This document shows positions 11,597-16,922 of a DNA stretch of 64,000 nt, piece after piece (the stretch's first letter is position 1; every line of letters starts with the position of its first letter). The notes beneath the pieces were generated by a model. That model was not told the DNA's origin and searched no databases. It saw only the letters and a list, made by a program, of their open reading frames with translations. The position numbers were made by a program, and so were the translations under genes. Origin of the DNA: Bacteroidetes bacterium HGW-Bacteroidetes-16 (lineage in GTDB: Bacteria; Bacteroidota; Bacteroidia; Bacteroidales; F082); contig PHDN01000003.1 of the NCBI GenBank assembly GCA_002840975.1, positions 62,001 to 126,000 on the forward strand. Direction: 5' to 3'.

Positions 11597-12757
11597 TTAG
11601 TGTGTTAGTTTAAGTGAGGCTGTTACCGGAAAATGATCGGAGCGTTTAAACCGATGCCTTGCATATTGAGTGGTCTTAAATCCTGAATGCAGGATATAAT
11701 CGATTCGCAACAAGGGGATCGGTCCTGCAAATGTAATACTGATTCCTTTTCCACGTTCAACGAAACTGTCGTTTAAATGGGATTGAAGCTGATGGTAAAC
11801 CCACGATGAAGGCGTATCGTTAAAGTCGCCACACAGTAAAATCGGATAGGTAGTGTTCACTATCATATCCTTGAGCAAATCAACCTGTTTTTCACGAAGT
11901 AAAAAGGCCTTGTTGAGTTTTTGATAGATTGCCAGTGATTTAACTTTGAGTTGCTCTTGGCTTTCGTTGGTTGGACTTGAAACAAATCCAAGGTCTTCCT
12001 TTCCCAGCTTGATGCTTGCCAGGTGAATATTAAAAACCCTTACCGTATCTTCATTGATCAGCAAATCGGTATAAATCCCAAAGGTGCGTGAACCCTCTAT
12101 TTTCAGTTTGCCCTTGTCCACAGCGGTATATTTGGAAAAAATCACCATCCCTGATAGCAGATCGTATTTAGGATTAAAATAGCTTTCGTAGTAATAAATG
12201 CCCGTATTCAGTTCGTCACGTGTGTGTTTGAGTGTCTCATAAATCTGGCGACCGGTTGTTTGGTATTCCTGAAGACAAACGATGTCGGCCTTTTCATTGT
12301 TGATAAAGGTCAGGATATCACTCTGAATTCCGGGCTGCGGCGTTTTGTTCCCGTCCCTGAACTGCTGCACATTATAGGTTAATACCTTCACAACTCCTTG
12401 AGCGTTATTTGCGGAATCGGTATGAAAAGGCATTTGAAAATTATCGATGAAGTTGTTTGCTCCAAAGATTAAAATGATAACGGGAATAACTGTAAACCAG
12501 CTTTTTCTGATCAACCAAAATACCATGAATACGGCGTTGGCAAATAAAATCAGGGGAAAAAACAAACCAAAAATTGGAACATAGCCATTTGATGAAGGTG
12601 GTATTTTTCCTGCCATCAACCCAAAAACAAACGCAGCCAATGCAATCAGATTTAGCACAGTGATGATGTAGAGCATTACTTTGACCAAGCTGCTCGTATT
12701 GGCGGTGTTTTTAGATGTGTATTTAAAGAAGTTCAATGTTACGGTTAATTTGGGCAC
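11597..12757 (-). CDS. Membrane-anchored endonuclease/exonuclease/phosphatase (EEP) family protein
   Basis: The N-terminal third has three hydrophobic segments (about 28-48, 60-85 and 88-103), and the rest is an EEP catalytic domain: VKVLTYNVQQF (strand 1, metal Asn), CLQEYQ (metal Glu), GDFNDTPSS (catalytic Asp/Asn), RIDYIL and SDHFPV (catalytic His). This fold cuts phosphodiester bonds in DNA, RNA or lipids. The membrane anchor suggests a periplasmic or lipid substrate. The open frame begins with GTG at 12757, and a later start cannot be excluded since the next Met is residue 28. It follows two rhomboid genes, an arrangement I recall from other Bacteroidota. Confidence 0.8.
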   Translation of the reverse strand: MPKLTVTLNFFKYTSKNTANTSSLVKVMLYIITVLNLIALAAFVFGLMAGKIPPSSNGYVPIFGLFFPLILFANAVFMVFWLIRKSWFTVIPVIILIFGANNFIDNFQMPFHTDSANNAQGVVKVLTYNVQQFRDGNKTPQPGIQSDILTFINNEKADIVCLQEYQTTGRQIYETLKHTRDELNTGIYYYESYFNPKYDLLSGMVIFSKYTAVDKGKLKIEGSRTFGIYTDLLINEDTVRVFNIHLASIKLGKEDLGFVSSPTNESQEQLKVKSLAIYQKLNKAFLLREKQVDLLKDMIVNTTYPILLCGDFNDTPSSWVYHQLQSHLNDSFVERGKGISITFAGPIPLLRIDYILHSGFKTTQYARHRFKRSDHFPVTASLKLTH

Positions 12758-12879: not shown

Positions 12880-13806
12880 CTACTTTTTATTACTCGATTT
12901 AAACAGCAGTTCTTTTTCATCTGGCGACAGGCTTGAATATCCCGATTTACTGATTTTATCCAGTATTTTGTCAATTTGTTCCTGGGTGGCTACGCGCCTG
13001 CTGTTGTATTCAACATCTGACAGAGGCTTGCTGTTTCCCGGGCGGCTGGTGGTATATTTCATGGATGTTCTATGGGAGGAGGTCACTGGCTTTTTAAACC
13101 AATCGAAGATTCGATAGAAATCGTTTCCTTTTTTTAACTGGAAAGCGTATGCAAATCCCCAAAGTGCACCGCCCAGATGAGCAATGTGCCCTCCGGGATT
13201 GCCATGCTGAATACTCAATAAATCGATACCAATAAAGGCGATAGCAAGGTATTTCATTTTTAGACGCCCAAACAGAAACAAATGGACTGTGTAATCAGGA
13301 ACATAGGTAGCAATGGCAATAAAAATAGCCAGGACGGATGCAGAGGCTCCAATGGCGACTGCTTCGGAGGTAACATGTTGAAAAACAGGAAACAGGTTAA
13401 AGGCACCAACGAAGAAGATGGCTCCGGTAATACCGCCAAGTAAATAGGTGGTCAATAATTTACGCTCGCTTAAGTACTCCAGAAATATAGTGCCTCCAAA
13501 ATAGAGCATAATCAGGTTAAACAATAAATGGAAGAATCCTTCCTGGGTAAACATGTAGGTAATTATCGTCCAGGGCATCTGGCCCAGTGAGCTGAGGTCG
13601 GAGGGAAGCGCCAGAAATTGACCAATATAGCTTAACTCGTCATTACCAGACGCTTCCATGCCAAAAAGCCACATGAGCTGACTGATGACATTGATCACCA
13701 GAAAAATCAGCGTATTAATCAGAATAAGGCGTGAAAGGATGCCTGGACCTAAAAAGAGGTTCCTGAAAAAGGTGCCTGAATTGACCGGCTGTTGAAATGG
13801 CATCAT
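12880..13806 (-). CDS. Rhomboid family intramembrane serine protease (second of two)
   Basis: 308 residues with six or more membrane helices. The catalytic serine is S155 in GASAS, and the helix-6 histidine is H210 in HIAHLGGALWG. The expected loop/helix-2 region (HLLFNLIMLYFGG) is present. Rhomboids cut membrane proteins within or near the bilayer. The C-terminal 75 residues are a soluble tail rich in Ser/Lys with QEQIDKILDKISKSG, which looks like a short helical regulatory segment. It starts 21 bases after the stop of the other rhomboid gene, so the pair is an operon. Confidence 0.88.
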   Translation of the reverse strand: MMPFQQPVNSGTFFRNLFLGPGILSRLILINTLIFLVINVISQLMWLFGMEASGNDELSYIGQFLALPSDLSSLGQMPWTIITYMFTQEGFFHLLFNLIMLYFGGTIFLEYLSERKLLTTYLLGGITGAIFFVGAFNLFPVFQHVTSEAVAIGASASVLAIFIAIATYVPDYTVHLFLFGRLKMKYLAIAFIGIDLLSIQHGNPGGHIAHLGGALWGFAYAFQLKKGNDFYRIFDWFKKPVTSSHRTSMKYTTSRPGNSKPLSDVEYNSRRVATQEQIDKILDKISKSGYSSLSPDEKELLFKSSNKK

Positions 13807-13827: not shown

Positions 13828-14574
13828 TTAATCAAACAATTTACCTTTTTTCTTCCAGTACATGATGAGAAAAAAACCGAAAATCATCCCGCCAAGGTGT
13901 GCAAAATGTGCCACATTGTCTGTTGGGTTGTTGCTAAAACCCATGTACAATTCTACCGCACCATATCCCATAACGAAGTATTTGGCTTTCACGGGTATGG
14001 CAAAGTACAGGTAAATAAGGCTGTTAGGGAACATCATACCAAAAGCAAGCAAGATTCCGAATACTGCCCCGGATGCTCCAACGGTGGGTGTGTTGACGAT
14101 GTTGTTGAGGATACGCATGGCATCATTGCTATAGTTCATGCCTTGCTTCATCACATCTGCACCCTGCGTATACACAATTTGAATCTCATCGGGGGTCAGT
14201 TGGGGCAATATGCCTTGAATTCTGATAAACCCAACAAGCCATTGCACAAGTCCGGCACCAATCCCTGTTACCAGGTAATAGTTTAAAAACCTTTTGGATC
14301 CCCAAACATTTTCCAGCACATTACCGAACATCCAGAGTGCGAACATGTTAAACAATACATGGGTAAAACCCGCATGCATGAACATATACGACACCAACTG
14401 CCAGACACCAAAATGCTGACTCCCCGGAAAATGCAGCCCAAGATATTGGGTCAGGTCAATTTGAAAAGCGGAGCCAAGAGCCAGGGTAGAAAGGAAAAAT
14501 AATCCATTGATGATCAAGAGGTTTTTCACTACCGGTGGTAGAAAGCCAAATCCTGAAGGACGATATTGTTGCAT
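13828..14574 (-). CDS. Rhomboid family intramembrane serine protease (first of two)
   Basis: 248 residues, six predicted helices. Catalytic dyad S168 (GASGAVFG) and H226 (VAHFAHLGG), plus THVLFNMFALW in helix 2. A loop of about 45 residues (118-162) between helices is longer than in GlpG. Two neighbouring rhomboids downstream of mutL are a recurrent gene order in this phylum as far as I recall. A TATTTTTG box at 14662-14669 lies 87 bases before the ATG. The substrate is unknown. Confidence 0.9.
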   Translation of the reverse strand: MQQYRPSGFGFLPPVVKNLLIINGLFFLSTLALGSAFQIDLTQYLGLHFPGSQHFGVWQLVSYMFMHAGFTHVLFNMFALWMFGNVLENVWGSKRFLNYYLVTGIGAGLVQWLVGFIRIQGILPQLTPDEIQIVYTQGADVMKQGMNYSNDAMRILNNIVNTPTVGASGAVFGILLAFGMMFPNSLIYLYFAIPVKAKYFVMGYGAVELYMGFSNNPTDNVAHFAHLGGMIFGFFLIMYWKKKGKLFD

Positions 14575-14786: not shown

Positions 14787-16601
14787 TTATTTGAGGAAAC
14801 CCTCAAGTTCTTCGCTGCTGATAATGCAAAATATTTTTTTGCCGGAGGGTGAAACGGAGGGTACCTGACATGAAAACAAATTATTGAATAGCTCTGACAT
14901 TTCTTTAATTGATAATTTAAAACCCGCTTTAACGGCCATGTTCATAGCCATCGACTTCGCCAACATAGCGTTTTGGTCGTAGTTCAGACTGCTGGCTTCC
15001 TTTTTGTGGTTTTCAACAATCCGCTCAAGCAACGACAAGGGTTCGTTTACATTGGGCGGAGTTCCATTCACCACGAAAGTGTTGGCTCCAAGCGGTTCCA
15101 GTATGAAGCCAAGATTTTTTAATTCTGCATCCAGTTGCCTGAGAATGTTGGCATCTTCGGGCGAAAAATGCAGATGTTCGGGGAATAACTGCTGCTGCGA
15201 AATGTGTTGGTGATTTTGGAGTTGGTTAACGAAAAATTCATATAAAATCCGTTCGTGTGCTCGTTGCTGGTGAATCAACAACAGACCTGTTCGTACATTG
15301 CAAACCAGGTAAGTTTGTCGCACCTGTAAAAAACCGGCATCGCTTTCCGGCACAAGATCGTTAATTGATTCTGTTTTGTCGTGCTCTGGCTGAATTTCTG
15401 CAGGGTTCTTTATTGTTTCAAACAAAGCTTCCCATTCAGATTGGGCCGGTCTGTCGTGCGTTTTAAAACCACGGCTGATCTCCTGATTCGACTTAAATGG
15501 ATTGTAATCCGGGTTCACCCGCACTTCCGGTTGGTTCAGGCTGGTCGAAGGGCGTTGGGAGAAGGCCGCTTCGATGCTGGGATCCACATTAAAATCGATG
15601 GTGGGTGTAAGTGCGTGTTTGCCAATGGATTGCTTTATAGCTGCGTGTAAAATGGCGTACACCAACCGTGCATCTTTAAAATTAATCTCCGTTTTGGTGG
15701 GATGAATATTGATGTCGATTTCACCAGGGTCGATTTCGATGTTGATAAAGTACGTGGGATAGGCATCTGACGGAATCAATTCAGTATAAGCATTGCTAAC
15801 AGCATGGTGCAGGTATGGATGCTTGATGTACCGTTTGTTGACGAAAAAATACTGTTCACCTCTTGTCTTCTTTGAGAATTCGGGTTTCCCGATAAACCCG
15901 GTAATGGTCACCAATTCCGTTTTCTGTTCTACCGGCAACAATCGCTCATTATAAGGCTGTCCGAACAATCCCACGATACGCGATTTAAACGAGCCGGGAG
16001 ATAGCTTGTAAACGAGTTTATCGTTATTGAAATAAGAGAAACCAATGTCAAATTGTATTACCGCAATGCGGATAAATTCTTCCAGGATATGTCTGTTTTC
16101 CACATTCACGCCTTTCAAAAAATTACGGCGGGCCGGTACGTTAAAAAACAGGTTCCTGACAGAAATACTGGTTCCGGACTGACATTGACACGGGTTTTGT
16201 TCTATCAATTTCGAACCTTCAATTTTCAGGCAGGTACCAACCTCGTCATCATGAGGTCTGGTTTTCATTTCCACCTGGGCAATGGCGGCAACCGATGCCA
16301 GGGCTTCTCCGCGAAAACCCATGGTTCGGATAGCAAACAAATCATCGGCCTTGGTAATTTTGGATGTAGCATGCCGCTCGAAGCTCATGCGTGCATCCAC
16401 CACTGAAAGTCCGCTGCCATTGTCAATCACCTGAATAAGCGTTTTCCCGGCTTCTTTGACAATCAGATGGAGGACAGTACCACCTGCGTCCACGGCATTT
16501 TCAAGCAGTTCTTTTACTGCTGAAGCCGGACGTTGTATCACTTCCCCGGCGGCAATTTGGTTGGCTACAGAATCGGGAAGCAGTTTGATCGTGTTTAACA
16601 T
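14787..16601 (-). CDS. mutL: DNA mismatch repair protein MutL
   Basis: MutL is the ATP-driven matchmaker between MutS and downstream repair. The 604-residue protein has the complete GHKL ATPase: AAGEVIQRPASAVKELLENA (ATP-metal motif I), DNGSGL (motif II), HATSKI and GFRGEALASV (motif III). The C-terminal dimerisation domain spans about 410-604. The endonuclease motif normally written DQHA(x)2E(x)4E reads HQQRAHERILYE at 444-455, so the first Asp and the His are replaced. It begins 6 bases after the small membrane gene at 16608-16922, which shares its promoter. Confidence 0.93.
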   Translation of the reverse strand: MLNTIKLLPDSVANQIAAGEVIQRPASAVKELLENAVDAGGTVLHLIVKEAGKTLIQVIDNGSGLSVVDARMSFERHATSKITKADDLFAIRTMGFRGEALASVAAIAQVEMKTRPHDDEVGTCLKIEGSKLIEQNPCQCQSGTSISVRNLFFNVPARRNFLKGVNVENRHILEEFIRIAVIQFDIGFSYFNNDKLVYKLSPGSFKSRIVGLFGQPYNERLLPVEQKTELVTITGFIGKPEFSKKTRGEQYFFVNKRYIKHPYLHHAVSNAYTELIPSDAYPTYFINIEIDPGEIDINIHPTKTEINFKDARLVYAILHAAIKQSIGKHALTPTIDFNVDPSIEAAFSQRPSTSLNQPEVRVNPDYNPFKSNQEISRGFKTHDRPAQSEWEALFETIKNPAEIQPEHDKTESINDLVPESDAGFLQVRQTYLVCNVRTGLLLIHQQRAHERILYEFFVNQLQNHQHISQQQLFPEHLHFSPEDANILRQLDAELKNLGFILEPLGANTFVVNGTPPNVNEPLSLLERIVENHKKEASSLNYDQNAMLAKSMAMNMAVKAGFKLSIKEMSELFNNLFSCQVPSVSPSGKKIFCIISSEELEGFLK

Positions 16602-16607
16602 AAAGGC

Positions 16608-16922
16608 TTAGTGTGTTACTCCGAAAGCCGAAAGCAATCGTTCGATAAAATCGGTGAACATAATCAGGTAAACACTACCTAAAATTAAGGTGGCATAAAT
16701 GGCATAAGTAATGACCTTTGACATGGAAGTGCCTTCCCGAGCGGAACTGCCCCTACGCCATCTTCTCGACATCTGTAACCTGATCTGTTCATGGTGTGTC
16801 AATGTGCTGTCAAGCCCCATGGCCGCCTTTTTCTGCTCCAGTGCCAGCTTATCGGGATCGTAGTAACGGGGTATGTAGGTAAACGACTTCGGCTTGGGTG
16901 TTTTAAAAACGAAAAAACGCAT
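16608..16922 (-). CDS. Small membrane protein upstream of mutL, function unknown
   Basis: 104 residues. The first 65 are soluble and basic (RYYDPDKLALEQKKAA, then SRRWRRGSS), followed by one or two hydrophobic segments (about 70-90). I recall a similar small gene before mutL in other Bacteroidota, annotated as hypothetical. Nothing shows a catalytic function. It shares the promoter at 16943-16950 and is 6 bases from mutL, so the two are co-transcribed. Confidence 0.7.
   Translation of the reverse strand: MRFFVFKTPKPKSFTYIPRYYDPDKLALEQKKAAMGLDSTLTHHEQIRLQMSRRWRRGSSAREGTSMSKVITYAIYATLILGSVYLIMFTDFIERLLSAFGVTH

Follow-up and report, generated by a model that had tools for sequence, protein, structure and literature searches.

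A MutL lacking its three endonuclease motifs, and the spread of the loss through a bacterial class

The mutL locus

The window (the whole stretch of DNA analysed, 64,000 nucleotides, to which all coordinates refer) carries a mutL gene on its minus strand, encoding a protein of 604 residues, with two rhomboid genes and an endonuclease/exonuclease/phosphatase (EEP) family gene downstream. The features are as follows.

14787..16601, minus strand: mutL, nuclease motifs lost, 604 aa
15603..16601, minus strand: N-terminal ATPase and transducer region, residues 1–333 (Pfam HATPase and DNA_mis_repair)
14790..15332, minus strand: C-terminal dimerisation domain, residues 424–604 (Pfam MutL_C, predicted model and structural match)
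15237..15272, minus strand: degenerate DQHA(x)2E(x)4E motif, residues 444–455, reading HQQRAHERILYE
15180..15197, minus strand: retained β-clamp-type motif QQQLFP, residues 469–474, aligned with QEMIVP of the B. subtilis clamp–MutL structure 6e8d
14940..14948, minus strand: position of the ACR motif, residues 552–554, reading AMN
14835..14852, minus strand: position of the CPHGRP motif, residues 584–589, reading SPSGKK
16608..16922, minus strand: membrane-type protein of 104 aa just upstream of mutL (context)
13828..14574, minus strand: rhomboid gene downstream of mutL (context)
12880..13806, minus strand: second rhomboid gene (context)
11597..12757, minus strand: EEP family protein with hydrophobic N-terminal segments (PF03372, 75.9 bits; context)

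The protein belongs to the MutL family, with a score of 493.5 bits against TIGR00585 (cut-off 180), and its MutL_C domain scores 83.2 bits in Pfam against a cut-off of 25. A search of its own assembly (3.94 Mb in 46 contigs, 96.6% complete) returned one MutL match and one MutL_C match and no second copy of either; an additional MutL with a live nuclease was rejected on these grounds.

The gene neighbourhood recurs in related genomes. Of 80 named loci (L133–L212), 69 have a rhomboid gene next to mutL, 59 have two separate rhomboid frames and 42 an EEP family protein. Neither rhomboid nor EEP genes were found near mutL in 20 loci from the rest of the phylum, outside the class (12 with an intact MutL and eight with a dead one). 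The operon marks the class and not the state of the nuclease. The 104-residue upstream protein has no Pfam or NCBIfam match; one locus of another class (L295) gives a weak match to it (18 bits).

The metal site of the window MutL

Three motifs are described as present in MutL endonucleases and absent from MutLs without the activity, and the arginine of CPHGRP as catalytic (excerpts of PMC10366529). In B. subtilis MutL, according to an excerpt of PMC2965676, His464 and Glu468 bind zinc together with residues of the other motifs. From our own reading of these two excerpts, five ligand columns were scored: the histidine and first glutamate of motif 1, the cysteine of motif 2 and the cysteine and histidine of motif 3. 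Aligned directly to B. subtilis MutL (3gab), the window MutL retains one of the five, Glu450. The other positions are occupied by Gln446 (in place of the motif 1 histidine), Met553 (the ACR cysteine), Ser584 and Ser586 (the CPHGRP cysteine and histidine), and that of the catalytic arginine by Lys588.

A first-pass annotation of this DNA had quoted HQQRAHERILYE at residues 444–455, as we also read it, without giving a strand (the gene is on the minus strand), and had proposed that the metal-binding Asp and His of the first motif are replaced, each through one base change. Both residues are indeed replaced, and the codons CAC (His444) and CAA (Gln446) agree with single changes from Asp to His and from His to Gln under the genetic code; the Asp, however, is no metal ligand, being described in the excerpt of PMC10366529 as taking no part in zinc coordination and as a possible helix cap. 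The change is larger than the one motif relied on there would indicate, with ACR and CPHGRP lost as well. The loss of the metal site is well shown, and the reading of the changed motif as a very probably dead nuclease is borne out: the known MutL nuclease has almost certainly been lost. Judged from its residues, the MutL of the window probably does not nick DNA.

Relatives in the genus and family

Two MutLs of the same genus (L031 and L032) also read HQQRAHERILYE at motif 1, and a third (L034) reads HQQRAHERILFE. The alignment of relatives thus places the change beyond the window, with HQQ shared by the genus. The possibility raised in the first-pass annotation, that relatives would carry DQHA and the window a base error, fails on this point; as HQQ is common to the genus and the other two motifs are gone across the class, a base or assembly error was rejected. 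In one of these relatives (L032; genome G226, contig C128) mutL contains an in-frame TAG near residue 194, marking either a naturally mutating strain or a fault in the assembly.

The first motif alone is misleading, since its ligand histidine is retained in 28 of 56 family MutLs, yet the ACR cysteine and CPHGRP are absent from them. At the level of the class, the pattern D.H...E....E is still matched by nine sequences (seven from the family and two from named loci).

Spread of the loss in the class and phylum

We assembled 184 class-level MutLs, comprising that of the window, 56 from its family, 48 that represent all remaining class members of a phylum sample, and 79 from named loci. The family set was drawn from 60 genomes, where L001 is the window's own locus, G255 gave no match, and G249 (L033) and G236, split over contigs, were left unscored; the named loci numbered 80, less L133, the MutL of which is identical to that of L044. 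At most two of the five ligands are kept in 184/184. For L032 the score covers the stretch that follows its stop, and L213, the frame of which ends after motif 1, was scored in part and counted as lost by default. The loss therefore spans the whole class sampled and not the single lineage on which the first-pass annotation had focused.

Outside the class, 73 genomes of other classes of the phylum were picked out of 149 from the matches listed, from which the weakest are absent, and the resulting fractions are not those of a random sample. Among these listed matches, all five ligands and the arginine are present in 45 of the 73 MutLs scored, at most two ligands in 28, and intermediates in none. 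A CPHGRP-like pattern, sought independently of any alignment, occurs in 0/184 class sequences and in 45/73 of those of other classes, again among the matches listed. The other-class rows with a lost site are L067, L069, L070, L072, L095, L097, L098, L105, L107, L108, L112, L116, L118, L249, L253–L261, L267, L268 and L270–L272.

By NCBI class, 66 of the 80 named loci are assigned to Bacteroidia, Flavobacteriia, Sphingobacteriia, Chitinophagia, Saprospiria or Cytophagia; 13 have no class name and one (L208), titled an alphaproteobacterium, is most likely a mislabelled bin. Because the named loci group with the window's class, and because L133, from a contig of the Marinilabiliales (members of the Bacteroidia), carries a MutL identical to that of L044, a member of the window's family, we take the class to be Bacteroidia in the broad GTDB sense. 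The name given to the window protein by the NCBIfam models, 'DNA mismatch repair endonuclease MutL', is probably wrong throughout this class.

A FastTree phylogeny built from 132 rows of the N-terminal domain sets the class apart across a branch with a support of 99, and in a tree of 256 rows, from which L032 was excluded, the 79 named loci fall with the window's class and the 73 other-class MutLs opposite (support 99); the method is a quick one, some long branches meet and several rows have an odd letter make-up. The intact and lost states require at least four changes on the smaller tree, with the same counts on the larger, and such counts cannot separate loss from regain. One other-class sequence, L249, is a lone loss within an intact clade. 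The simplest history would be a single loss, at the base of the class or earlier, and elsewhere either further losses or, in some cases, the transfer of an intact gene.

Retained regions and divergence of the C-terminal domain

Columns of the ATPase region are invariant in an alignment of 12 class sequences. The clamp motif is likewise kept in the class, with Gln469 in 181/184, Pro474 in 181/184 and Phe473 in 179/184 sequences; QQQLFP may serve to dock MutL on the clamp of the replication machinery. Between the window and L031 there are three nonsynonymous and 41 synonymous differences in the N-terminal domain, and five nonsynonymous and 28 synonymous differences in the C-terminal domain (dN 0.012, dS 0.290); dS is saturated against four more distant relatives. 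These counts indicate that MutL is under purifying selection.

The predicted model of the C-terminal domain (39 sequences) has a pLDDT of 94.3 and a pTM of 0.87. Its best structural match is N. gonorrhoeae MutL (Z 19.4), followed by the MutLs of B. subtilis (Z 15.7), A. aeolicus (Z 14.8 over 92 residues) and E. coli (1x9z, Z 14.3), a shared fold that is no proof of function; a Foldseek search was also run on the model.

The domain has diverged strongly within the class. At 60–65% N-terminal identity, C-terminal identity with the motifs omitted is 31% in the class (376 pairs), against 63% among intact MutLs (25 pairs) and 55% among nuclease-lost MutLs of other classes (35 pairs), the last being near the intact value. 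C-terminal divergence in the class is thus about twice that of intact MutLs at like N-terminal identity, and the class has changed by more than the disappearance of the site would by itself call for. Each of the five ligand columns varies within the class (conservation ranks 57 to 127 of 177), and the column of the catalytic arginine includes K, R, N and S among other residues. His449, Arg451, Glu455 and Cys578 are strongly conserved. The last (window 14868–14870) ranks 14 of 177 in the class as against 70 in intact MutLs; for Ala448, His449, Arg451 and Glu455, conservation among intact MutLs is just as strong as in the class.

Partners and possible substitutes

The genome of the window contains MutS_I (E 1.1e-38) and also matches MutS_V. 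In the class, MutS_I was found in 140/149 genomes and not in the other nine, some of which are highly complete. A MutS2 with an Smr domain is also present in the window's genome; endonuclease activity is known for Smr domains (excerpt of PMC3200294).

A profile search for MutH at E ≤ 1 gave no match in the genome of the window, the E. coli control being positive; the absence from the window noted in the first-pass annotation, which had suggested a genome search, thus extends to the whole 3.94 Mb assembly. No Dam-type methylase match was obtained there at E ≤ 0.001 in a search that covered PF02086 (E. coli control positive). In the class, the MutH profile PF02976 is matched in 9/198 genomes at E 0.001, eight of them over the cut-off. 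MutH was rejected for the class on the five proteins scanned, four of which pass the cut-off for the Sau3AI restriction enzyme. The fifth, L127 (213 aa), may be of either kind, with 52.5 bits for Sau3AI, 48.0 for MutH and no equivalog cut-off exceeded; L121, L123 and L124 were judged on frame length alone (465, 466 and 486 aa), and L128 is a weak match below the cut-off with two stops in frame. In the phylum sample PF02976 matched in 3/198, with frames of 463–481 aa, and one of the three (L122) was scanned with profiles.

NucS-like matches occur in 11/149 class genomes, nine over the Pfam cut-off; NucS was rejected as a substitute because these are scattered and not class-wide. In the window's own genome (L273:904-1827, contig C23) a 307-residue protein has a NucS_C-type nuclease domain (Pfam NucS_C, 39.3 bits against a cut-off of 24) and scores below both NucS equivalog cut-offs (38.5 against 216 bits and 26.7 against 252 bits). 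By eye, its gene is directly downstream of a frame resembling a type I restriction specificity subunit.

Possible mismatch repair without a nicking MutL

Bacteria with MutS and MutL are described as nicking in two ways, through MutH with Dam or through a nicking MutL (excerpts of PMC12733681 and PMC8744996). The most far-reaching reading, held with middling confidence, is that the broadly defined Bacteroidia and, on the tree, also other lineages in the phylum run MutS–MutL repair with neither the MutL nuclease nor MutH, by an undescribed route that would be either a MutL-activated nuclease or the use of pre-existing ends read through the replication clamp. The lost nicking activity has presumably been replaced in one of these ways. 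Among the literature matches listed we found no account of a class-wide loss of the MutL nuclease without MutH, and no paper plainly on such a loss in Bacteroidetes or Bacteroidota; a prior description is possible.

The mechanism that we favour, and which we regard as evenly poised, is that MutL acts as a nuclease-dead, clamp-docked matchmaker on pre-existing strand ends. The endonuclease would have been lost in the ancestor of the class, with MutL still serving mismatch repair. MutS would detect the mismatch and load MutL, the ATPase and dimer of which would still form a clamp on DNA; QQQLFP would dock on the replication clamp, which is loaded at strand ends and would in this way supply the strand information; and MutL would steer helicase and exonucleases to existing ends, such as Okazaki ends and nicks left by other repair, with no nicking of its own. 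There is precedent for parts of this scheme: the nuclease-free MutL of E. coli is able to capture UvrD where a strand is already broken (excerpt of PMC6876574), and Okazaki ends and RNase HII nicks are discussed as entry points for one species that lacks MutH (excerpt of PMC8744996). Against it, E. coli MutL depends on MutH for the break (PMC6876574, same excerpt) and T. thermophilus MutL altered only at the CPHGRP arginine does not restore repair (excerpt of PMC10366529); on both counts loss of nicking is costly where tested. The roughly twofold C-terminal drift might also reflect an altered role or the gain of a partner. The scheme further takes 'no known nickase' to mean 'no nickase', a step that we infer.

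The main alternative is that a separate, unrecognised nuclease of a family other than MutH nicks the new strand when activated by MutL, which we regard as a tentative possibility. Loss of the nuclease from E. coli MutL accompanies MutH (excerpt of PMC8744996), no known nickase was found here (MutH absent from the genome, NucS-like matches few and scattered), a highly diverged nuclease would slip past profile searches, and the C-terminal domain is altered beyond the metal site, as it would have to be to offer a surface to a new partner. None of the candidates, however, follows the pattern of the loss. The EEP neighbour, absent from all 20 other-class loci including the eight with a dead MutL, was rejected as the new nuclease of MutL, and its hydrophobic N-terminus, seen by eye, suggests a membrane protein with the domain outside; no observation made here ties MutS2, with its Smr domain, to MutL.

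Two further readings are improbable. MutL might still nick through a metal site rebuilt from other residues, for which the strongly conserved His449, Arg451, Glu455 and Cys578, the last with its raised rank, are candidates; the first three, together with Ala448, are as well conserved in intact MutLs and need not form a new site, and the variability of the five ligand columns and of the arginine column counts against both this reading and the differently built nuclease site suggested in the first-pass annotation. Equally doubtful is the reading that the class has little or no mismatch repair and that MutL has another task, for example control of recombination: the low C-terminal identity, the nine class genomes in which MutS_I was not found and the in-frame stop of L032 would fit, and MutS_I in 140/149 genomes, the kept clamp motif and the signs of purifying selection speak against it.

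If the class has neither way of nicking, it would offer a natural test of whether existing ends and the clamp suffice or, alternatively, a place to seek a new repair nuclease.

Comparison with known systems

A nuclease-free MutL is already known where MutH exists, in E. coli. The MutL of the window resembles that protein, which is described as having no endonuclease activity (excerpt of PMC8744996), in the absence of the motifs and in its fold. The E. coli protein works with MutH and Dam, whereas the searches of the present genome gave no MutH and no PF02086 methylase, and unlike it the class keeps much of the motif 1 helix (Gln445, Ala448, His449, Arg451 and Glu455). The MutL endonucleases of B. 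subtilis, N. gonorrhoeae and A. aeolicus share with the present protein the C-terminal fold and the region of the clamp motif, and differ from it in that all three metal motifs are lost here.

MLH1 is a eukaryotic MutL subunit without nuclease, and nuclease-free eukaryotic subunits pair with another MutL. Unlike these, the present genome was found to contain a single MutL with a single MutL_C domain. Human PMS1 likewise has a MutL C-terminal domain from which the metal motif is missing (excerpt of PMC2965676).
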